DNA from: Alphaproteobacteria bacterium
GTDB lineage: Bacteria > Pseudomonadota > Alphaproteobacteria > UBA8366
Direction of reading: 5' to 3'
Assembly (NCBI GenBank): GCA_028281325.1
Contig: JANQKC010000009.1
Coordinates: 186,001-250,000 of the forward strand
DNA: 64,000 nucleotides
Position numbers and translations under genes: made by a program. The notes below the pieces were generated by a model, which was given only the letters and a program-made list of their open reading frames with translations, did no database searches and had not been told where the DNA came from. Below are positions 39,097 to 55,619 of the stretch, piece after piece (the first letter of the stretch is position 1; every line of letters starts with the position of its first letter).

Positions 39097-39264
39097 TCAA
39101 TTCATTGAATTCGTTGCGGCGCCAATCGTGCCGCTGAACGAACCACCCATACTATCGAGGGCGGCGACCAGAACGACCGCCACAAGCGCTATGAGTAAGC
39201 CATACTCGATGGCCGATGCGCCATTTTCGTCCCGCATCAGTCGCATCAGAATTGCGTTGACCAT
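39097..39264 (-). CDS. Flp/Fap pilin, short
   Basis: 55 residues from ATG 39264, preceded by GGGAGAGG. The product has the Flp pilin pattern: a short basic leader, MRDENGASAIEYGLLIALVAV with the Gly/Ala-Ser-Ala-Ile-Glu-Tyr processing and assembly motif, and a hydrophobic helix. It is a class IVb prepilin for tight adherence. It lies downstream of a LuxR-type regulator gene on the same strand and upstream of the winged-helix gene. The usual tad machinery genes are not in the window. Confidence 0.88.
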   Translation of the reverse strand: MVNAILMRLMRDENGASAIEYGLLIALVAVVLVAALDSMGGSFSGTIGAATNSMN

Positions 39265-39478
39265 GATACCTCTCCCGACGCCACATATGTTGACGGCGCT
39301 TGAATTGCCGTCTTGTTGTTGTCTTTCGGGCCTCTTTCCGTCCGGTGTTGGGACCCGGATCTTTCGAGGGAGCCGATTGACGTCTTGGAGGTAGAGTATC
39401 AGGACGATGGGCTTGTTCTACGGCGATTTGAACCGATTAAGAATTATCCCTTTCGTGATCTGCTTGCATTACAAAGGG

Positions 39479-39504
39479 TTAGGGACCCTGCCTCGGGTCC
39501 CTAA
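39479..39504. terminator. Strong hairpin between regulator and flp
   Basis: A perfect ten-base stem, TTAGGGACCC paired with GGGTCCCTAA, around a six-base loop. It lies after the stop of the LuxR-like gene and 215 bases before the flp start. No clear T-run follows on the minus strand; on the plus strand the sequence ATTTTAG follows. It may be a terminator, an attenuator or an mRNA-stabilising hairpin for the flp transcript. Confidence 0.5.
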
Positions 39505-39560
39505 ATTTTAGTTCAATTTCAGATGATTAGCGGAAAATCGCCACCGCCGGAGCAACGCGC

Positions 39561-40235
39561 TCACGCGGCGTCGCCGGCCTTGCGGTCGTGCACCCCGGCC
39601 CGAAGGGCCCAAAGCGCCGCTTGAGTCCGGTTCGATACACCAAGCTTTCGGATCAGCGATTTCATATGGATTTTCACCGTCGCGGCGGTGATGCCGAGCC
39701 GGCGCGCCATCTGCTTGTTGGACAGACCGAGCGTCAGGCACTCAAGGATATCCTGCTCCCGCGGCGTCAGATCGCGCAGCCGGCCGGCCTCTTCGAGGCC
39801 GGCTCCGGTCCCGTCCATATCGCCACGCAACCAAGCCGTGGCGAGACTGGACGGAAACACCGTCTCGCCCAGCGAAATCAGGTTTAACGAATGAATGAAG
39901 GCATCCTTGGAAATCGAACTCAGCAGGTAGCCGTTGGCGCCGACGCGCAAAGAAGCGCCGAGTTCCTCGACCGACAACGCAAAGGACACGAGGACGATCC
40001 GCGCTTGGGCGTACTCGGCACGCAATCGATCGACCGCGGCTTCGGATTCCTCGGTCACGCCGGTCGTGACATAAATGATGATTTCCGGCTCGGGATTTCC
40101 ATCAGGCGGCTCAAGGCACTCCTCGACGCGGTCAAATTCGGCCACCGTTCGAAACGCGGATTCCTTCAGAAATCCGTCCAAACCGCGTCGGAATAAATCA
40201 CTGCCGCCGACCAAGAATACAGGTGCTTGAGACAC
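39561..40235 (-). CDS. LuxR-type regulator with degenerate receiver, flp-associated
   Basis: 224 residues from the GTG at 40235 (after GGGGGAG), which gives VSQAPVFLVGG, matching the paralogue at 45856. The receiver (residues 1-125) lacks the acidic pocket (GGS) and has Val where the phosphoacceptor Asp should be (EIIIYVTTG). The C-terminal LuxR/NarL helix-turn-helix is intact: LTPREQDILECLTLG, then ITAATVKIHMKSLIRKLG. It probably responds to something other than phosphorylation. The flp pilin gene lies downstream. Confidence 0.88.
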   Translation of the reverse strand: MSQAPVFLVGGSDLFRRGLDGFLKESAFRTVAEFDRVEECLEPPDGNPEPEIIIYVTTGVTEESEAAVDRLRAEYAQARIVLVSFALSVEELGASLRVGANGYLLSSISKDAFIHSLNLISLGETVFPSSLATAWLRGDMDGTGAGLEEAGRLRDLTPREQDILECLTLGLSNKQMARRLGITAATVKIHMKSLIRKLGVSNRTQAALWALRAGVHDRKAGDAA

Positions 40236-40595
40236 GCTCTCCCCCAAGAGGCAAGCACCCCTCCCAACACTATAATTATACCAAATTTCATAGGAATTTG
40301 CATCTGTATTTTAATATACATATGTTTTCATTTAACTGTATTTGTATTTTGATAATAAAATAACCATTTGATCTATATATATTTATAAATACCCAAATAT
40401 ATATGCATGGCTGCTTTTCAACCAGAGCATGACCCAAAATGGCCGAAGCGGTCCGCCCTCTCGCCCTGCGATACATCCGCGGGTTGAGCGGCGATCCGTG
40501 ATCGGACGCCGCCCCTAGCGGCATGTCAGACGAACATCATGAACCACTGGCAGCGACCGTCGCGCGTGCTAAGTTTTACCGAGAGGGTATCGAGC
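40236..40595. other. AT-rich promoter region
   Basis: About 360 bp between the divergent LuxR-like and DUF1194 genes. Bases 40265-40415 are strongly AT-rich with runs of TATAT and AAT. The sequence from 40430 to 40595 is GC-rich. No RNA gene or clear operator was seen; the region likely carries the promoters of both neighbours. Confidence 0.55.
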
Positions 40596-41492
40596 ATGCA
40601 GCACGCAATGACGGCAAAGCGCTTTCGCGGACCGACCGGGCCGTTCCGCCGGTTTCTATCGGTCGGGTTGGCCCTATTCCTGACGGTATCGATCGGCGCG
40701 GGCCTTGCGGCGAAAGAGAAGCCGGTCGACCTGGAACTCCTGCTTGCCGTGGACGTATCCGGCAGCGTCGATGCGGAAGAAGCGCTGCTGCAACGCAACG
40801 GCTATCTCGGCGCGCTGCGCAATCCCGAGGTCATCGCCGCCATCAAGTCCGGCATGCTCGGCCGGATCGCCCTCAGCTACGTGGAATGGGCCGGCCTCGG
40901 CTACTACAAGGTCATCGTCGATTGGACGGAAATCCACGACGAGGCGAGCGCGGTCGCCTTTGCCGACAAACTGGCCGCCGCCCCCATCGTCACCGCGCAT
41001 CGCACGTCGGTCAGCGACGCCATCGATCTGTCCGTGCCACGCTTCACTGGAAACGGCTTTGAAGGCACGCGGCGTATTCTGGATGTCTCCGGCGACGGCT
41101 CCAACAACTATGGCCGGCTGGTGACCGACGCCCGCGACGATGCCGTGGCCGCCGGCATCACCGTAAACGGCCTGCCGATCGTCACCGACCAGACCAATGC
41201 GGTCTACCCGACGATTCCCGATATCGACCTTTTCTATCGGGACTGCGTCATCGGCGGACCCGGCGCCTTCTATGTGGTTGCGAACGGCTTCGAGGATTTC
41301 GACCGCGCGGTCCGCAAGAAGCTGATTCTCGAAATCGCCGGCCGGACCCCACCGACGGAATCGCAACGCGCCGCCGCTTCGCCTGATTTTGGCCCTTCGC
41401 GGCTTTGGCGTGTCGCCGAACGCGAGTCGCCGCCCTGCAATATCGGCGAGTGGCGCTGGCTCGGCATCATCACCGGCGGTACGGGCGAGTAA
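40596..41492 (+). CDS. DUF1194 (von Willebrand factor A-like) protein
   Basis: 298 residues from ATG 40596, with GAGAGGG eight bases upstream; earlier ATGs lack a ribosome site. A membrane or signal segment near residues 17-36 is followed by a VWA-type domain with the DVSGSVD metal site (MIDAS), then HRTSVSDAID and ILDVSGDGSNNYG. The C-terminal DUF1194 region ends in PPCNIGEWRW. It is probably exported and binds another protein or a surface ligand; the function is unknown. Confidence 0.87.
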   Translation: MQHAMTAKRFRGPTGPFRRFLSVGLALFLTVSIGAGLAAKEKPVDLELLLAVDVSGSVDAEEALLQRNGYLGALRNPEVIAAIKSGMLGRIALSYVEWAGLGYYKVIVDWTEIHDEASAVAFADKLAAAPIVTAHRTSVSDAIDLSVPRFTGNGFEGTRRILDVSGDGSNNYGRLVTDARDDAVAAGITVNGLPIVTDQTNAVYPTIPDIDLFYRDCVIGGPGAFYVVANGFEDFDRAVRKKLILEIAGRTPPTESQRAAASPDFGPSRLWRVAERESPPCNIGEWRWLGIITGGTGE

Positions 41493-41539
41493 CCCAACGG
41501 CCCGACGCCGGCCGAGCCGACCCGGGAAATGCCTAATTT

Positions 41540-41553
41540 TTGATCTGCATCAA
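41540..41553. promoter_or_regulatory. FNR/FixK-type box
   Basis: TTGATCTGCATCAA is a perfect TTGAT-N4-ATCAA palindrome. It lies 47 bases after the DUF1194 stop and about 180 bases before the small membrane protein gene. The regulated gene is most likely that small protein or the shorter upstream frame starting at 41598, about 50 bases from the box centre. Confidence 0.7.
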
Positions 41554-41729
41554 TTCTCGAGTGCGCCACGCTCGATAGGCTCTTCAATGGGACTGTAATG
41601 CCTCACAGCTCCCAAATTGCGCCAGCGCCCCGGCATCGGATCGAACAGGCGGCAACCCTGCCGACACTTTGTCGGGGCGCACCGGGCGAGGGTGGAAACG
41701 CATACGAACAACCAGACACGAGCGACGAC

Positions 41730-41837
41730 ATGACCGACGGCGAAATCGCATATCTTTCGATGGTAATGATCCTATGGTTCTCCTTCATCATCGTGATGGG
41801 GTGCCTTTCGATGAGTGAAGAGAAACGCAGAGACTAG
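41730..41837 (+). CDS. Tiny membrane protein (35 residues)
   Basis: MTDGEIAYLSMVMILWFSF begins a single predicted membrane helix with a short acidic N-terminus and a basic EEKRRD tail. The frame is open upstream to 41598, so the true start could be there. No strong ribosome site is visible. It may be a small oxygen-regulated membrane protein because a perfect FNR-type box lies upstream. Confidence 0.42.
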   Translation: MTDGEIAYLSMVMILWFSFIIVMGCLSMSEEKRRD

Positions 41838-41946
41838 GGTTTCGCCGACCCGGTGGCATAGTGTCGTTAAGGGTTGTTGCCTGTCGCCGTTCACGGTCGG
41901 CGCACAACCGCGGTTGGCGTGGCCAGGCGGGCCGGCAAAGCGACCC

Positions 41947-42186
41947 TTAGTTCAGATAGTCCGTTTCCTTGGCGCGCAGTGCCGTCCGGGCATCCTCGAT
42001 CAGCGCCTCATACCGCCCCTGGCACGCCAGGTCATTGTTCGCGACCAAGCATTGCAGCACGTTCTGCAGCGTGTACTTGAGGTCCTCGACCTGCGCCCGA
42101 AGGCCGACGATCTGGCATGTATGCTCGAACCGGCCCGCGCCGTCCTCGTCGGAAACCAAACCACCCCGTTGCGTATGATGGGTCAT
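41947..42186 (-). CDS. Small helical protein, hypothetical
   Basis: 79 residues. The central part (CQIVGLRAQVEDLKYTLQNVLQCLV) looks like an amphipathic helix or coiled coil, followed by NNDLACQGRYEALIEDARTALRAKETDYLN. The ATG has no strong ribosome site. It could be a regulator or adaptor, or a spurious frame; no family is recognised. Confidence 0.45.
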   Translation of the reverse strand: MTHHTQRGGLVSDEDGAGRFEHTCQIVGLRAQVEDLKYTLQNVLQCLVANNDLACQGRYEALIEDARTALRAKETDYLN

Positions 42187-42650
42187 TTTTATAACACCAA
42201 TATCAGGTTGTGATCCGATCCTATGTCGACACGGGTCTTGGGGATATGACCGCGGTCACAGAGACGCTGGTTACGCGGCGATTCCCGACACTTACACGGT
42301 GGCACCCGGACCCTGCGACAAAACCCTAGATTGTTTATCGCTGCGTGCGCCAATCCAAAGATGTGGATTCCTGTGCCAATCGCGCCGGATCGGCGCAGGC
42401 GAGCCGGCCGAAGCGCAATCGCCGCACCGGAGAATCACCGCAGGTGAAGTGTTGGTTTGCTGTAGATTCAATACTTTATCAAAACCCGCCCTTGGAGAAG
42501 TTAGCTTTCCAGTAAGCCTTACCCGCTATCATCAAGCCGTTCTGGATGGGACGACTCTTCGTCCAGCGGCGAATGGCCACTGTTGATCCAAGACCCCGCG
42601 AAACGACTCACGAACGTGACGCAAACCGACAGGCAGGCTGACTCAGCAGA
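42187..42650. other. Intergenic region (about 464 bp)
   Basis: Mixed composition. One frame of 95 codons (42299-42586) lacks a ribosome site and domain similarity and is ignored. No hairpin with a T-run, repeat or operator stands out. The 3' part is the promoter region of the receiver gene. Confidence 0.45.
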
Positions 42651-43178
42651 ATGGCTTTCTCATTTGACCAGTTAAAGATCCTGATCGTCGACGACGACGA
42701 ATTCACGCGCGTGCTGATAAAGGAGGTGTTGCAGATCATCGGCTTCACCGCGCCGAACATCCGCTTGGCCGGCGACGGTCTGGCGGCGTTCAAACATCTC
42801 GAAGAAGAGAAAATCCATATCGTCATGTCCGATCTGCGCATGAAACCGATGGATGGCCTGACCTTCGTCCGAAAGCTACGGGATCCCGACAACAGTCCCG
42901 ATCCCTTCGTTCCGGTCATATTCTGCACCGCCTATACCGACCAGGCCAAGGTCGAACGCGCGCGCGACATGGGCGTCAACGAAGTCATCGCCAAGCCGAT
43001 CAGTATCGGGAATGTCGAAAGCCGGATCCGCGCCGTCCTCGAACAACCGCGTCCGTTCGTCAACGAAAGCTATTACTTCGGCCCGGACCGCCGCCGCCGT
43101 CACGAAGAGCCAATAGATGGCAAGGACCGTCGCCAGCAAAAGAGGGTCCATATCAAAACCGTGCGGGACGATACCTGA
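42651..43178 (+). CDS. Single-domain response regulator (CheY-like)
   Basis: 175 residues. A complete receiver domain: acidic pocket DDDE, phosphoacceptor Asp61 in VMSDLRMKPMDG, Thr/Tyr in FCTAYTD and the invariant Lys115 in IAKPIS. After residue 130 the tail contains YYFGPDRRRRHEEPIDGKDRRQ, a basic extension common in alphaproteobacterial receivers of this type. It has no output domain, so it probably acts by protein contact or phosphorelay. Its cognate kinase is not adjacent. Confidence 0.9.
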   Translation: MAFSFDQLKILIVDDDEFTRVLIKEVLQIIGFTAPNIRLAGDGLAAFKHLEEEKIHIVMSDLRMKPMDGLTFVRKLRDPDNSPDPFVPVIFCTAYTDQAKVERARDMGVNEVIAKPISIGNVESRIRAVLEQPRPFVNESYYFGPDRRRRHEEPIDGKDRRQQKRVHIKTVRDDT

Positions 43179-43292
43179 CGCCGTGCCCGGCCCGGCACCT
43201 CGACTTGATGCGAATGCCGCTACGCGGCATCATTACGGTTCCGGTTCTGACCCGCCAAGGGTCCCTCTCCATTCCCACCGATAGGTCGACCG

Positions 43293-44216
43293 ATGCCGCA
43301 ATCCGCCGTCAATTCAATGAATACGTTCGAAATCGCGCCATCCGGCAAAGCGGTCGGCGCGGAGATTCGGGGAATCGATCTCTCCCAACCGGTTCCGGAA
43401 GACGTGCGCAAGGCAATCCATCAAGCCTGGCTCAATCATCTGGTGCTGCTGTTTCGCGGACAGTCGCTGACGCCCCGGCAATATCTGGACGGCGCCCGCA
43501 TCTTCGGCGAGCCGCAAGTCGGCGCCGCGCGTAAGTATTATGAGAAGGCCGGCGTCACGTCGATTGCCAACTCGCTCGATACGCCGGAAGTCACGATCCT
43601 GTCGAACCTCGACGAGGACGGCAATCCGACCGAACGCAACAGCGGCCTCGGCAGTCTCGAGGTGGTCTGGCATTCGGACAATTCCTATATCGACCAGCCG
43701 CCGGCCGGCAGTTGTCTCTATTCGATCGAAGTGCCCGCCGAGAGCGGCAACACGTCCTTCAATAACCAATACATGGCCTACGACACCTTGCCCGACGACT
43801 TGCGTACGGCGATCCAAGGCAAGAAATCGATCCAGGATTCGACCCGCAACAGCGCCGGCGTGCTGCGCCCCGGCGTTTCCCTGCCGAGGCGCCCGTCGGA
43901 AGTACCCGGCCCGCACCATCCGCTGGTCCGCGTCCATCCGGAGACCGGCCGCAAGGCGCTGTATCTCGGTCGTCGGCGGGACTATCCGTCGCAATACATC
44001 GTCGGGATGGACGAAGACGAGAGCGAAGCCCTGCTCGACCGGCTCTGGGAACACGCGACACAGGACAAGTTCAAATGGACGCATAAATGGAAGGCGGGCG
44101 ACTTGCTGGTCTGGGACAACCGCTGCGCGATGCATTACCGCGACCCGGTCGATCCGACCCAGCGCCGGGTCATGTACCGCACCCAGTTTCAGGGCGAGAC
44201 GCCGATCCCCGGATAA
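43293..44216 (+). CDS. TauD/TfdA family dioxygenase
   Basis: 307 residues from ATG 43293; a second ATG eight codons in is also possible. Fe(II) ligands are visible as VVWHSDNSY (His127, Asp129) and the late His in NRCAMHYRD, with the oxoglutarate-binding Arg nearby (RRVMYRTQ). The N-terminus GAEIRGIDLSQPV is typical. It hydroxylates an unknown substrate. Its neighbour on the opposite strand is an M24 peptidase. Confidence 0.92.
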   Translation: MPQSAVNSMNTFEIAPSGKAVGAEIRGIDLSQPVPEDVRKAIHQAWLNHLVLLFRGQSLTPRQYLDGARIFGEPQVGAARKYYEKAGVTSIANSLDTPEVTILSNLDEDGNPTERNSGLGSLEVVWHSDNSYIDQPPAGSCLYSIEVPAESGNTSFNNQYMAYDTLPDDLRTAIQGKKSIQDSTRNSAGVLRPGVSLPRRPSEVPGPHHPLVRVHPETGRKALYLGRRRDYPSQYIVGMDEDESEALLDRLWEHATQDKFKWTHKWKAGDLLVWDNRCAMHYRDPVDPTQRRVMYRTQFQGETPIPG

Positions 44217-44228
44217 TTGCCCGCGCGG

Positions 44229-45362
44229 CTAACCGTCGACGACCAGGATTTCTTCGTTGTCGAAGTAGTCCGACCGGATCACCGGCGCGCCGTCGGTAAT
44301 CTCGACTAGGTCTTCCATGTGATAGCCGACCTCGCCGGGCCACCGAACCCGGGTTTCCACCGTCGACATCATGCCCGGCACATACACCGTGTCGTCATGC
44401 GGGCTGATCAGCGGATATTCATGCAGTTGCAGGCCGATCCCGTGCCCGTTATGGGCATAGGGGAACGGAACATCGTGCTTCTCGTGCAGCCGCGTCGCGG
44501 CTTCGAAAAGCTCTCGACCTGCGTTTCCCGGCCGCAGCATGTCGATGATCGTGTGGTGTATTTCGCGCAGCCGCCCCCACCAGGACCGGTCCACATCGGT
44601 CGGTTTGCCGAGCTTCGCGGTCCGACCGACATTGGAATAGTAGCGGCGGTAGTACCCGCCGGTATCCGCTTTGAGAATATCGCCGTCGCGCAATGCGTAA
44701 TCCGATGGGTCCATATGCGGGAAGCCGGTGTTGGGACCCGCGTTGATATGCGTGAACGCCACCGATTCCGCGCCGGACCGCAGGATCCGGTCGCTTAGGC
44801 CGTAGCACATGTCGCGTTCCGTCATGCCGGGCCGCGCGGCTTGGAAGGTTTCCATCAAGGCCTGTTCGGTCCCGCGAAACGCCCGGGTCAGGATGTCGCG
44901 TTCCCGCGGCGATTTGATCATCCGCACGCCGGCGAACAGATCCTCGCACGGCGTCACGTCAAGCGCGGGCAGCAGACGCGTCAAGGCGCCGTGATACCGC
45001 GCGCCCAGATAGTCCAGCTCGATGCCGACCCGTCCCTGTTCCAGGCCGAGGTCGCACAGAACATCCGCCAGCACCGTGATCGGCGAAGTCACGAACTCCT
45101 TATAGGTACGGATATCGGTGATCCAGGATTCCTGCCGGACATATCCTTCTTCCACCGCGCACAGAACGAAGACCGGCGCGCGTTCGCCGTCCCAGACGAT
45201 CAAAGCGAGGCGATCCCGGATATCGACCTGGGTCGATACGAAGACGTCACTGATGTAATTCACGTTCTCCGGCGACACCGCGACCACCGCGTCGCAATCG
45301 CTCTCCACAATCGCGCGGCCCATGCGGCCGAGATCGCCGACCGCGTCCTGCATTCTCTTCAT
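44229..45362 (-). CDS. M24 family (Xaa-Pro type) peptidase with an altered metal ligand
   Basis: 377 residues with a creatinase-like N-terminal domain and a pita-bread M24 domain. Metal ligands expected: Asp233 in LKADTGG is present, but the second Asp is Asn244 (YYSNVGRT). His307 in NGHGIGLQLHE, Glu336 in STVETRV and the final Glu in HMEDLVEIT are present. The change may weaken one of the two metal sites or signal an altered activity. GGAGGAG precedes the ATG. A 14-base palindrome lies about 70-85 bases upstream. Confidence 0.88.
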   Translation of the reverse strand: MKRMQDAVGDLGRMGRAIVESDCDAVVAVSPENVNYISDVFVSTQVDIRDRLALIVWDGERAPVFVLCAVEEGYVRQESWITDIRTYKEFVTSPITVLADVLCDLGLEQGRVGIELDYLGARYHGALTRLLPALDVTPCEDLFAGVRMIKSPRERDILTRAFRGTEQALMETFQAARPGMTERDMCYGLSDRILRSGAESVAFTHINAGPNTGFPHMDPSDYALRDGDILKADTGGYYRRYYSNVGRTAKLGKPTDVDRSWWGRLREIHHTIIDMLRPGNAGRELFEAATRLHEKHDVPFPYAHNGHGIGLQLHEYPLISPHDDTVYVPGMMSTVETRVRWPGEVGYHMEDLVEITDGAPVIRSDYFDNEEILVVDG

Positions 45363-45855
45363 GGCGCTGCTCTCCTCCCGTCCATCGAAGCGATGCCCTT
45401 GCCCATCATCGGTTCAACACGGCGACAAGGCAAATCTACTAGTAGATATTCCTTTGGGATGCCGGTCCACGGATGACGCCGCTCAAATTACGTTTTCACG
45501 GGCGAGGCGGTCTTCGAACACGGCCTGGAAAGGCTCATTCATGTTAAAACAGGTACGCTTTCCCAATCCGAAACGGTGCGCGGCGCCCCCTCGTGCACTC
45601 AGAACGCTCAAGCACCCGCGCCATTGAACATGGTTAACTTGAAAGCCATTCGAATCAAACTTCATTGATTTTCTTATTTAAATCAAAATTACTTGGTTAA
45701 TTTCATCTAAAAAACTTAACTATATTTTTATCCATAAAGTAATAATCCGTATTATCGAGAAATTATTTAAAATTTTACTCGATTTTTCCAGGTAATGATC
45801 ATATTTAGGTAATGCTCTTGGGAGGGAGCGCACAAAAGAGTTTTGAGGGGACGGT
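45363..45855. other. AT-rich intergenic island (about 493 bp)
   Basis: It lies between the divergent M24 peptidase and LuxR-like genes. Bases 45650-45790 are strongly AT-rich. Besides the 14-base palindrome near the M24 end I see no RNA gene. GAGGGGACGGT directly precedes the LuxR-like ATG. Confidence 0.55.
45434..45447. promoter_or_regulatory. Perfect palindrome upstream of M24 gene
   Basis: ATCTACTAGTAGAT is a perfect 14-base palindrome, 72-85 bases upstream of the M24 peptidase start. It shares the ACTAGT core with the TetR operator at 35229. It is probably an operator for an unidentified repressor. Confidence 0.5.
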
Positions 45856-46524
45856 ATGTCAAACGCACCTGTATTTCTGATTGGCGGCACGAACTTGTTT
45901 CGCCGCGGATTGATGAGCTTCCTCGGCGACACCGATTTCGCGGTGACCGAGGAATTCGACGCCGTCAATGACTGCATCTCGGCGGCGCAAGACGGCGAGA
46001 CTCCCGAAGTGGTCATTTTTGCCGCCGCCGGGAACATCGAAGCGTCCGAAACCGCGATCGAAACGCTGACCCGCACCTTCCCGGACGTCCGAATTATGGT
46101 CCTGTCGACCGAATTGTCGGTCGACGAACTCGGCGCATGCCTCAAGGCCGGTGCGCGCGGATATCTGCTCAGCAGCATCTCCAAGGAAGCGCTGGTCCAT
46201 TCGCTCACCTTGGTGGTTCTCGGCGAGACCGTATTCCCGTCGGGTCTTGCAAACGCCTGGGTCAACGGCGGCCTCTCGCAACGCCGGCAAACGGGTCAGG
46301 CGCCGGTCCGCGATCTCACCCGCCGGGAGAGCGATATTCTGGAATGCCTGACGACGGGTGCGGCGAACAAGCAGATCGCGCGCGACCTCGGCATCACGGA
46401 AGCCACGGTCAAAATCCACATGAAATCGCTGATCCGGAAGATCGGGGTCAGCAATCGAACCCAAGCCGCCTTGTGGGCCATCAATTCCGGCTTCGGACAA
46501 TCCATGATGGGTGCGGCCGCGTAA
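45856..46524 (+). CDS. LuxR-type regulator with degenerate receiver, flp-linked
   Basis: 222 residues. The N-terminal receiver fold (APVFLIGGTNLFRRGLMSFL) lacks the acidic pocket (Gly-Gly-Thr at 10-12), and the phosphoacceptor position is Ala56 (VVIFAAAGN); the usual Lys in YLLSS is also missing. The C-terminal NarL/LuxR helix-turn-helix is intact (LTRRESDILECLTTG, then ITEATVKIHMKSLIRKIG). It is paralogous to 39561-40235. The flp pilin gene is 42 bp downstream on the same strand, so it probably controls pilin expression. Confidence 0.9.
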   Translation: MSNAPVFLIGGTNLFRRGLMSFLGDTDFAVTEEFDAVNDCISAAQDGETPEVVIFAAAGNIEASETAIETLTRTFPDVRIMVLSTELSVDELGACLKAGARGYLLSSISKEALVHSLTLVVLGETVFPSGLANAWVNGGLSQRRQTGQAPVRDLTRRESDILECLTTGAANKQIARDLGITEATVKIHMKSLIRKIGVSNRTQAALWAINSGFGQSMMGAAA

Positions 46525-46566
46525 GCCGCATTGCCAAACGCACGCAATAGATAGGGAGACGCAAAA

Positions 46567-46758
46567 ATGTCGAAAAGCATCCTTAAGTCACTACTGTTGG
46601 ACGAAAGCGGCGCAACCGCGATCGAATACGGATTGATCGCGTCGCTTGTATCGGTCGCCGCGATCGGCGCGATGTCGGCGATGGGCACCTCGCTCGAGGA
46701 AATGTTCAATCACGTGTCGAACGAACTGAAAGGCGCGGCGGACACAACAACGGGATAA
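46567..46758 (+). CDS. Flp/Fap pilin
   Basis: 63 residues. A basic leader (MSKSILKSLLLDESG) is followed by ATAIEYGLIASLVSVAAIG, the Flp prepilin processing and helix motif with Glu-Tyr at the expected position. The C-terminus is short and polar. It is probably assembled by the tad system. It follows the LuxR-like gene after 42 bp, with GGGAG upstream of the ATG, and is followed by a strong terminator. Confidence 0.92.
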   Translation: MSKSILKSLLLDESGATAIEYGLIASLVSVAAIGAMSAMGTSLEEMFNHVSNELKGAADTTTG

Positions 46759-52034: not shown

Positions 52035-53246
52035 ATGGAAACAAACAAAATATTATTTGTCGACGACGAACCAAATGTACTTCAGGGTATTCGAAGAATG
52101 CTGCGCAATCGCCGCAATGACTGGGACATGTCTTTCGCCACCAGCGGCGCGAAAGCTCTGCAGACGCTGGCATCGACACCGATCGACATCGTGGTCTCCG
52201 ACATGAAAATGCCGGAAATGGACGGCGCGACCTTCTTGTCGGAAGTACAGAAGCGTCACCCCGAGACGATTCGCATCATACTGTCGGGCTTCGCGGAGTC
52301 CGAGGCCGTAATCCGGACAATCGGTCCTTCCCACCAGTATCTGGCGAAGCCATGCGACCCGGACACCCTTTGCGGCGCCATCGAACGGGCGATCGACCAC
52401 TGCGCCTTCATCAGATGCGACGCCGTACGTAAACTCGTGACCGGGTTACGCGAAGTGCCGGTCCTCCCGGCCACGCTTTCCACGCTGGTCAATGAAATCG
52501 AGGCGCCGGACTCTTCGGTCTCCGCCGTCGCAAAGACGATCGCCAACGACGCCGCGATGACGGCGCAAATCCTGAAACTCGTCAATTCCGCCTATTTCGG
52601 GCTGCCGCGGCAGGTCGCGACGCCGCTGCAGGCCGTACAGTTGCTCGGCCTCGAAACGATCAAGGCGCTAGCGCTTGTCGCAAACATCTTCAACAAGTTT
52701 GAAGGCGACGAAGCGGCGCTCGAGAAAATCGACCAGACGAACCGCCGCTCGCTCAAGATCGGCGCCTTGGCAAAATCCATCGCCGAAGCCGAAGGGTTCG
52801 AAAAACCGATTGTTCAACAGGCTTGCTGCGCCGGCGTGCTGTCGCATATCGGCGTGCTGCCGCTGGTGACGGCCTGGTCCGACCGATGGTCGAATGTGGT
52901 GTCCGCCGTCGACAACGACGGTTTGTGCATCACGGACGCAGAAGAATCGGAACTGAATACCAACCACGCCGAAATCGGCGGGTACCTCCTCGCCATTTGG
53001 GGATTCAATGCCGAGATTTTCGATGCCGTCCGGTATCACCACACGCCGGCCGACGCCCTGCCGCATGCCCCTAATGCGATCACCGCCGTACACATCGCCC
53101 AATACTTGGTGCGTAAAGACCGCGACTCCTACTGCAACGGATGCGGCCTGGACCAGGATTACATCGCCGGGTTGGGTTTGTCGGACCGGCTGCCCGAGTG
53201 GCAGACGGCCTATGAGAAACTCGAACATCGGGATCTCGGACGATGA
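52035..53246 (+). CDS. Receiver-HDOD protein
   Basis: 403 residues. Receiver domain with an intact acidic pocket, Asp56 in VVSDMKMPEMDG and Lys in LAKPCD. The HDOD domain is visible from about residue 135 (VPVLPATLSTLVNEIE, KTIANDAAMTAQILKLVNSAYFG, then TPLQAVQLLGLETIKALAL). HDOD proteins are non-catalytic signalling partners in cyclic-di-GMP circuits. It is the first gene of the cassette; its stop overlaps the next start (ATGA). Confidence 0.93.
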   Translation: METNKILFVDDEPNVLQGIRRMLRNRRNDWDMSFATSGAKALQTLASTPIDIVVSDMKMPEMDGATFLSEVQKRHPETIRIILSGFAESEAVIRTIGPSHQYLAKPCDPDTLCGAIERAIDHCAFIRCDAVRKLVTGLREVPVLPATLSTLVNEIEAPDSSVSAVAKTIANDAAMTAQILKLVNSAYFGLPRQVATPLQAVQLLGLETIKALALVANIFNKFEGDEAALEKIDQTNRRSLKIGALAKSIAEAEGFEKPIVQQACCAGVLSHIGVLPLVTAWSDRWSNVVSAVDNDGLCITDAEESELNTNHAEIGGYLLAIWGFNAEIFDAVRYHHTPADALPHAPNAITAVHIAQYLVRKDRDSYCNGCGLDQDYIAGLGLSDRLPEWQTAYEKLEHRDLGR

Positions 53247-54433
53247 AAGACCGCGTCCTCCTCGTCGATGATGAAAAGAACGTCCTGTCGAGTCTGCGAC
53301 GGCAGCTCCGTGGCAAGTTCGATATTGCAACCGCTGTGGGCGGGGGTGAGGCTATCTCGTTGATCGAGGCCGAGGAACCGTTCGCCGTCGTAGTGACCGA
53401 CATGCGGATGCCGGAGATGGACGGCGTGACCTTTTTGAAAAAGGCCAAGGAGCTGTCGCCGGAAACCGTTCGCATGATGTTGACCGGAAACGCCGATCAG
53501 GAAACGGCGATACAGGCGGTCAACGAAGGAGACGTGTTCCGGTTCTTCAACAAGCCCTGCGCGCCGGAGGTGTTGGAAGCGGGCATCAACGCGGCGCTGG
53601 AGCAACACCGCCTGATCACCGCCGAGCGCGACCTGCTGCAAAAAACCCTATCGGGCAGCATCAAGGTCCTCGTCGACGTGGTTCGCCTGGTCGACCAGGA
53701 CATCTTCACCAACCCCGATCTGTTGCGCAGCTTGGCCCGGGATGTGGCGACCGAGCTCAACGTGCCAAACGCCTGGCGCATCGAAATGGCCGCTACGGTG
53801 GCGCAGATCGGCAGGCTGACGGCCCCGCCCGATCTCATGGTGAAACTGCGGCGGACGGAGACGTTAACGGAAACCGAGCAGGAAATCGTCGACCGCTGCC
53901 CGGAAACCAGCCGCGATCTTATCGGACACATCCCACGGCTCGAGGCGATCGGCGAGATCGCCTATTACCAGAACAAGAATTTCGACGGCAGCGGATTTCC
54001 CGACGACGACGTTCGCGGCGAGGACATTCCGGCAGGCGCCCGTATTCTGCACGTGCTCATCGACCTGCTGGAGTCGAGTGGCGGACGCGCACCGGGTGCC
54101 GAGGCCATGGCGGCGCTGATGAAAAGACCGGGCCGGTACGACCCAAAAGTACTGGAAGCGGTTGCCAAACTCATCGCCGCGGACCTGACATCGATACAGA
54201 CGCCGGTCGATTGGGTGCGCACCTCGGTGAAGGTGCAGATGCTCGCGGACGGCGACCAACTCGCCGAAGACATCGAAGCCGACGACGGCACGGTCCTGCT
54301 GGCGGCGGGCCAAACGGTAAACCGACCTCAGATCAAGAAGCTCGCCAACCTGGCGAAAATGAAACGAGTCTGCGAACCGGTCCATGTCTTCCGGCCGGTG
54401 CCGGATGCCGAACAAATCCAAGCAACAGGATAG
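53243..54433 (+). CDS. Receiver with catalytically dead HD-GYP domain
   Basis: 396 residues. Receiver domain: Asp53 in VVTDMRMPEMDG and Lys in FNKPCA. The second domain aligns to HD-GYP phosphodiesterases (LTETEQEIVDRCPETSRDLI, then DGSGFPDDDVRGEDIPAGARIL), but the metal-binding residues are lost: the HD position reads TVAQIGR, and the HHE-type motif reads AYYQNKNFDGSGF. It probably cannot hydrolyse cyclic di-GMP and may instead act as a regulator. Its start overlaps the REC-HDOD stop by four bases. Confidence 0.9.
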   Translation: MKDRVLLVDDEKNVLSSLRRQLRGKFDIATAVGGGEAISLIEAEEPFAVVVTDMRMPEMDGVTFLKKAKELSPETVRMMLTGNADQETAIQAVNEGDVFRFFNKPCAPEVLEAGINAALEQHRLITAERDLLQKTLSGSIKVLVDVVRLVDQDIFTNPDLLRSLARDVATELNVPNAWRIEMAATVAQIGRLTAPPDLMVKLRRTETLTETEQEIVDRCPETSRDLIGHIPRLEAIGEIAYYQNKNFDGSGFPDDDVRGEDIPAGARILHVLIDLLESSGGRAPGAEAMAALMKRPGRYDPKVLEAVAKLIAADLTSIQTPVDWVRTSVKVQMLADGDQLAEDIEADDGTVLLAAGQTVNRPQIKKLANLAKMKRVCEPVHVFRPVPDAEQIQATG

Positions 54434-55619
54434 GTCCGAATTGAATAAACCCAGGGTACTGTTGGTGGATGACGACGCAAGCCATCTGACCGCCTGCAAA
54501 CGGCAGTTCCGCGACAGATTCGATGTGGAACTCGCACGAAACGCGACAGAGGCGTTGTCGAAGCTGGACACGCTCGGCCCTTTCGAGGTCATCGTCAGCG
54601 ATCAGCGGATGCCCGGCATGTCCGGCCTCCGTCTCCTTCAGGAAGTCACCCGACGCGGGCTCCCGGTCGTCCGGATCATGCTGACCGGTCACGCCAACCA
54701 GGAAACCGCGATCGCCGCGGTGAATGACGGTCAGATCTTCCGGTTCCATACAAAGCCGTGCCGACTGGATACGTTGTCGCAATCGATCACGGCGGCCGCC
54801 GAGAAGTACCAAAGCATCGCGGCACAAACGCCGCCGCATGCCCATCTCCAGAAGGACTTGCGGCACGCGCTGGATCGCGGCGAGTTCCACTTGGTGTATC
54901 AGCCGCAAGTCCTGGCCGCGACGACGGAAATGACCGGTGTCGAGGCCTTGATTCGCTGGATACACCCGGAACACGGAACGGTCTCTCCCGAGGTTTTCGT
55001 CCCCCTGCTGGAGCGTTCCGGCATGATCGACAGGGTCGGCGAGTGGGTGCTGCGAAAAGCGTGCGAAGACGCCGTTACCCTGGATGCGAGCGGCGTATCC
55101 GGCCTTCATATGGCCGTGAACGTGTCGCCGGTCCAACTCCGTGAAGATCATTTCACCGATACCGTCGAACGCGTTCTAGCCGAAACGGGATTGCCCGCCG
55201 AACGCCTCGAAATCGAACTGACGGAGAGCATTCCCGTCGACGCATCGGACGCAATACTGGACCACATGAACGATCTGCGGTCGATCGGCGTTCGATTGGC
55301 GATCGATGACTTCGGAGCCGGCTATTCCGCCTTGTCGTATTTGAATAAGTTTCCCGTGCAGAAACTCAAACTGGACAAGTCATTCGTCCAAAACATCGAT
55401 GGAACCGCGGACGAAACCGTGGTGACCCAAACCGTCGTGAACCTCGCGCACCGGCTGGATATGACGGTCATCGCGGAAGGCGTCGAGACCGCCGATCAGT
55501 TCGACATCGTCTCTGCCCTTGGCTGCGACATCTGCCAGGGATACCTGTTCAGCGCCCCCATGGCGGCGCCCGCATTGCCGGACTGGAACAGCAATAAACG
55601 CCTTAAAATTGCAGTATAG
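54405..55619 (+). CDS. Receiver-EAL cyclic-di-GMP phosphodiesterase
   Basis: 404 residues from ATG 54405 (overlapping the previous gene), or from a TTG at 54441 after ATAGG. Receiver: Asp66 in VIVSDQRMPGMSG and Lys in FHTKPC. EAL domain with the catalytic residues retained: GVEALIRWIHPEHG, AVNVSPVQL, IELTESIP, IDDFGAGYSALSY, KLKLDKSFV and VIAEGVET. It is expected to be an active phosphodiesterase that lowers cyclic di-GMP when the receiver is switched. Confidence 0.94.
   Translation: MPNKSKQQDRSELNKPRVLLVDDDASHLTACKRQFRDRFDVELARNATEALSKLDTLGPFEVIVSDQRMPGMSGLRLLQEVTRRGLPVVRIMLTGHANQETAIAAVNDGQIFRFHTKPCRLDTLSQSITAAAEKYQSIAAQTPPHAHLQKDLRHALDRGEFHLVYQPQVLAATTEMTGVEALIRWIHPEHGTVSPEVFVPLLERSGMIDRVGEWVLRKACEDAVTLDASGVSGLHMAVNVSPVQLREDHFTDTVERVLAETGLPAERLEIELTESIPVDASDAILDHMNDLRSIGVRLAIDDFGAGYSALSYLNKFPVQKLKLDKSFVQNIDGTADETVVTQTVVNLAHRLDMTVIAEGVETADQFDIVSALGCDICQGYLFSAPMAAPALPDWNSNKRLKIAV

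Follow-up and report, generated by a model that had tools for sequence, protein, structure and literature searches.

The window analysed here is a stretch of 64,000 nucleotides (positions 186,001 to 250,000 of contig JANQKC010000009.1, assembly GCA_028281325.1) from an alphaproteobacterium whose genome comprises 5.1 Mb in 41 contigs. It contains two gene pairs, on opposite strands, in which a LuxR-type regulator (P0002, P0003) is followed on the same strand by a small gene for an Flp pilin, and a third gene (P0001) whose product shares the receiver-fold domain of the two regulators (Table 1). A preliminary description of this DNA had placed these three open reading frames correctly, including the GTG start of P0002 at 40235, which is likelier than the TTG at 40247 where the mechanically called frame begins. 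The interval it assigned to the finding, 39097-46758, needs a small correction, as P0001 is part of the finding and lies outside it.

Table 1. Features of the luxR-flp block, in window coordinates.
Feature	Coordinates	Strand	Description
P0001	37748..38476	-	Pseudo-receiver (GG / Met / Arg) and PilZ domain with RxxxR and DxSxxG; no HTH
ORF between flp1 and P0001	38651..39100	-	Conserved; start uncertain, ATG 39061 likely
flp1	39097..39264	-	Flp pilin, 296 bp downstream of P0002
Inverted repeat	39479..39504	-	10-base arms, TTAGGGACCC-6-GGGTCCCTAA, between P0002 and flp1; alignment read by eye
P0002	39561..40235	-	Pseudo-receiver (GG / Val / Ser) and LuxR HTH; GTG start at 40235 probable
AT-rich region upstream of P0002	40236..40535	-	69% AT in last 200 bp
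AT-rich region upstream of P0003	45556..45855	+	71% AT in last 200 bp
P0003	45856..46524	+	Pseudo-receiver (GG / Ala / Ser) and LuxR (GerE) HTH; NarL-type orphan regulator
flp2	46567..46758	+	Flp pilin, 42 bp downstream of P0003

The domain assignments are borne out by Pfam. The GerE helix-turn-helix scores 68.5 bits in P0002 and 72.3 bits in P0003 (cut-off 23.5) and is absent from P0001, which instead ends in the PilZ domain that had been claimed for it (27.1 bits against a cut-off of 22.5), with both c-di-GMP motifs present in P0001 and in its orthologue. The CsgD equivalog model NF007505 (NCBIfam, threshold 250 bits) is not reached, with scores of 65.3 and 84.9 bits. The two small open reading frames match Flp_Fap above its cut-off (47.1 and 61.2 bits) and both carry the G-x4-E-Y processing motif; they are genuine, intact pilin genes. 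Each regulator is preceded by AT-rich DNA (the mean AT background is 49%), and the proximal part of the region upstream of P0003 is strongly conserved in a sister genome of the same genus (MAG OFTM110, JAJFJD records). The inverted repeat that separates P0002 from flp1 may be a terminator or attenuator; the sister genome has one with altered arms at the same site. The frame between flp1 and P0001 shows only weak winged-helix similarity and is 74% identical in the sister genome. An antisense open reading frame lies between P0002 and flp1 (39313-39504, +); conservation of its DNA in the sister genome is good, and the product is 73% identical over 41 aa, though with small indels. Between the two modules (42651-43178, +) is a gene for a CheY-like protein in which the canonical Asp and Lys are present; it too is conserved in the sister genome. 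Two paralogous PAS_5 genes lie downstream of P0001 (36406-36876 and 37063-37554, -). A stand-alone PilZ gene likewise sits beside a PAS_5-like gene in another genome (G045, L186).

The three receiver domains are homologous but have lost the residues of phosphotransfer. P0002 and P0003 are 55% identical over 226 aa, and the receiver of P0001 is 31% identical to that of P0003 over 134 aa (E 2e-21) and to that of P0002 over 127 aa. Residue register was taken from a profile alignment with NarL (1a04) and from an alignment of 200 family rows. In both, the acidic Asp-Asp pair is replaced by Gly-Gly in all three proteins, and the phospho-Asp position holds Met in P0001, Val in P0002 and Ala in P0003. 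The catalytic Lys is Arg in P0001 and Ser in the other two, while the Ser/Thr position is Gly in P0001 and Ser in the others. Thus, the Gly-Gly and Met/Val/Ala substitutions read earlier from the sequence hold up under profile alignment, which gave no canonical Asp, Asp-Asp or Lys. All three proteins score below the Response_reg gathering cut-off in Pfam (18.6-23.4 bits against 30.2). The predicted fold is nevertheless intact, and AlphaFold models it confidently: the model of P0003 has a mean pLDDT of 86 and its receiver superimposes on 2qsj at 1.3 A across 120 residues with Z 19.5, and the predicted receiver of P0001 matches solved receivers with Z 18.5 and 1.5 A. The orthologues in the sister genome have lost the catalytic positions likewise, and with dN/dS values of 0.07-0.14 the earlier claim that this family is unable to use Asp phosphorylation is upheld. 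Loss of the Asp chemistry is well supported by the alignments, and because these residues are gone we infer that the proteins are not phosphorylated in vivo. Additionally, Cys40 in helix 2 is conserved in 8 of 8 proteins of the set formed by P0001, P0002, P0003 and C16; helix 2 is among the least conserved elements (15% identity), yet this residue is retained. Some other pseudo-receivers use Cys (PMC12632262), and Cys40 is possibly a sensing residue, pointing towards a redox signal or a ligand.

The sister genome retains both luxR-flp pairs, the intervening open reading frame and the pseudoreceiver-PilZ gene in unchanged order. Genes of the block show dN/dS of 0.07-0.19 at dS of 0.4-0.9, so the degenerate receivers are being maintained rather than decaying, and the block is under purifying selection in two genomes of one genus. 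Since the two genomes are related, the conserved order may reflect inheritance and not selection for co-regulation. Outside the genus, luxR-flp adjacency was absent among the matches listed when 289 genomes of the class were searched for both families, and no flp gene lay beside a regulator at 80 named loci (flanks of up to 8 kb) or at further loci examined with 1.5 kb flanks. A general luxR-flp rule was therefore rejected, only congeners having the pair. The adjacency being confined to the genus, there is no independent recurrence to show that the regulators control flp. Thus, of the expectation that the module and its pilin neighbour recur in other genomes, the part concerning the sister genome stands and the part concerning wider distribution does not. 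The proposal that the family controls Flp pili is partly borne out: two separate pairs favour it and the restriction to one genus weakens it.

In the genome as a whole we recognised five LuxR members of the clade, counting P0002 and P0003, together with P0001 and several looser relatives. The five LuxR paralogues sharing Gly-Gly are monophyletic (support 100/99) and the receiver of P0001 groups with them (SH-aLRT 96). The clade consists of five LuxR paralogues and one PilZ form, known from two genomes of one genus. A full-length pseudoreceiver-PilZ protein was found outside the two congeners neither in 43 genomes of the order nor in 289 sampled from the class. In a GTDB genome search, the best relatives outside the genus (38-46% identity) came from Azospirillum and other Rhodospirillales. 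In most Azospirillum relatives LID(A/S)NK replaces the acidic pair, and the phospho-Asp and Lys are retained. Some genes of the nearest outside family lie at a distance of 2-3 kb from flcA, which encodes a flocculation/EPS regulator; we located flcA in Azospirillum (L071) through its published probe primers, which match exactly. FlcA itself has a canonical receiver and falls in the outgroup, behind a branch supported at 95/96; orthology with FlcA was rejected on this tree and because the canonical DD/D/K residues are absent from P0001, P0002 and P0003.

The genome has three flp genes, two of which lie directly downstream of members of the five-gene luxR clade, and the other three paralogues have no flp neighbour. 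With five available slots among some 5000 genes and two of the three flp genes falling in them, a rough calculation puts the probability of this arising by chance at ~3e-6, and chance adjacency was rejected from the number of flp genes together with retention in the sister genome. The third flp lies on another contig (C39) within a tad locus that, by gene order and sequence reading, appears complete, with a prepilin peptidase, CpaB, CpaC, CpaD, TadZ, CpaF, TadB, TadC, TadD and a TadE-like protein; flp2 is 74% identical to this main tad flp. As the main tad locus has its own flp, flp1 and flp2 are best described as satellite pilins. The gene calls around the luxR-flp modules include none recognisable as a histidine kinase. 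The 9-mer TTAACTATA occurs nine times in the genome; five occurrences fall in promoters, one each for P0003 and two paralogues and two for the main tad flp. It was rejected as a shared operator and is not counted here, having been chosen post hoc and lacking strict conservation in the sister genome. Two CtrA-type boxes (TTAAN7TTAAC) lie upstream of the main tad flp (L043, 14853-15153). This pattern occurs 36 times genome-wide against 17 for the reversed pattern, and none was found upstream of flp1, P0002, P0003 or P0001.

We give about even odds to a scheme in which satellite pilin genes are regulated by P0002 and P0003, two NarL-type orphans that work independently of phosphorylation, and P0001 tunes the LuxR paralogues via c-di-GMP. 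The receivers of P0002 and P0003 would serve as a fixed dimerisation or ligand module. As they are not switchable by Asp phosphorylation, their activity would depend on the amount present, on binding of a protein or small molecule, or on both. Each would most likely regulate the flp downstream, presumably by binding DNA there, and probably itself as well, which would alter the supply or type of major pilin for the one Tad machine, whose genes lie elsewhere in the genome. Control of flp is plausible, being what the luxR-then-flp order most naturally suggests; the gap is 42 bp in one pair and 296 bp, with the inverted repeat, in the other. This repeat may separate transcription of P0002 and flp1, which counts against joint control. 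In favour of the scheme, paralogues or kin are found near other surface genes: a CsgG gene lies about 5 kb from one paralogue (C3a), and polysaccharide export genes lie near a weak relative on contig C31. In P0001 the HTH is replaced by PilZ, and the protein would most likely bind c-di-GMP, as its motifs imply, and tune the LuxR paralogues, for example by pairing with their pseudo-receivers. Both the c-di-GMP input and heterodimers of P0001 with P0002 or P0003 are conjectural. BldM-WhiI heterodimers are a precedent for such control (PMC12632262), and pairing of P0001 with the other members is not specifically supported because its receiver has only 31% identity to them in its C-terminal half. 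The most far-reaching form, in which P0001 is a c-di-GMP-operated partner that pairs through its pseudo-receiver with P0002, P0003 and other paralogues and thus makes phosphorylation-independent NarL-type regulators c-di-GMP-responsive, we consider distinctly unlikely; if true, one PilZ adaptor would set several surface-fibre promoters together. Farther right, 5-9 kb from flp2, REC-HDOD, REC-HD_5 and REC-EAL genes stand in a row (52035-55619), so that a likely c-di-GMP turnover gene lies near, which proves no link. In another alphaproteobacterium (G052, L185 7499-8152) a short PilZ match immediately precedes the flp gene of a tad locus.

The evidence can be read in other ways. P0002 and P0003 could be constitutive regulators controlled by amount, with no ligand or partner, their pseudo-receivers acting only as dimer scaffolds and P0001 being a separate c-di-GMP effector that shares their ancestry. 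We regard this as quite possible, if short of probable, given that constitutively active pseudo-receivers controlled by expression are a known mode (PMC12632262) and that the regions upstream of both regulators are AT-rich and partly conserved. However, the P0001 receiver groups with the LuxR set and sits in the same block, and retention of Cys40 hints at a domain function beyond scaffolding. It is rather unlikely, in our judgement, that the LuxR pseudo-receivers regulate something else, such as surface polysaccharide, curli-like fibres or cell state (compare flcA), with flp genes brought beside them by segment duplication rather than as targets. The nearest outside relatives lie near flcA and not flp, and most paralogues have no pilin neighbour, the adjacency being genus-limited. 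Against this, two of three flp genes adjoin two different paralogues in the same order both times, and both pairs are retained under selection in the sister genome. On contig C3 (L047 14978 to L048 5676), a CsgG-like gene is found near LuxR-type regulators, one canonical and others degenerate, in an arrangement that resembles the Azospirillum flcA region.

Direct sensing of c-di-GMP by the LuxR members themselves, as in VpsT, is highly improbable. VpsT, a LuxR protein with an atypical receiver, ranks 15th in the structure comparison (3klo), and in P0003 the receiver is followed by an additional helix (129-136). The c-di-GMP motif of VpsT is W[FLM][TS]R. This motif is present in 0 of 50 aligned family members, and the Gly-Gly clade has GExVF(P/A) at approximately that register (for VpsT R134, see PMC3359988). 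As the LuxR members lack a VpsT-type motif, any c-di-GMP effect on them would need to come through P0001 or indirectly.

A 2025 review (PMC12632262) called the switching of pseudo-receivers a mystery. In the present small clade the same dead receiver is joined either to an HTH or to PilZ, within one gene block beside an evident output gene, and both partner pairing and c-di-GMP input thereby become directly testable. Our scheme would mean that a Tad bacterium has added satellite pilins, each controlled by its own regulator, and suggests an unusual, so far genus-limited, way of controlling attachment.

Several known systems share parts of this arrangement. The Azospirillum FlcA locus, concerned with flocculation, EPS and cyst-like cells (PMC4264754), has close outside relatives of P0003 (39% identical) 2-3 kb from flcA, but FlcA is canonical and its Azospirillum neighbours retain phospho-Asp and Lys. 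PprB of Pseudomonas aeruginosa is likewise a NarL/LuxR-type regulator with flp and tad targets (PMC3510237); PprA-PprB is, however, a classical kinase-regulator pair inside the tad locus, whereas here no neighbouring kinase was recognised and tad lies elsewhere. VisN/VisR of Liberibacter are LuxR-type regulators of one among several flp genes, flp3 (cited in PMC8454146), and that paper does not present them as pseudo-receiver paralogues preceding the flp gene. Within Flp pilus biology, TadZ/CpaE of Tad pili (4dn6, 4dad) has an atypical receiver-like domain, and P0002 gives a weak TadZ_N match (E 0.09). In TadZ/CpaE this domain is fused to an ATPase-like domain and forms part of the pilus machine, whereas P0002 and P0003 are transcription regulators. 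In the open-access papers searched, we found no set of pseudo-receiver paralogues whose outputs divide into HTH and PilZ within one flp block. A further likeness is to the described class of aspartate-less or pseudo-receiver response regulators, for example BldM/WhiI and VpsT (PMC4395418, PMC12632262), which also have a receiver fold without phosphorylation residues fused to a DNA-binding domain and are encoded by orphan genes. The present clade differs from that class in that DD, D and K are all lost together in a genus-specific expansion, two members of which precede flp genes and one of which carries PilZ instead of an HTH.
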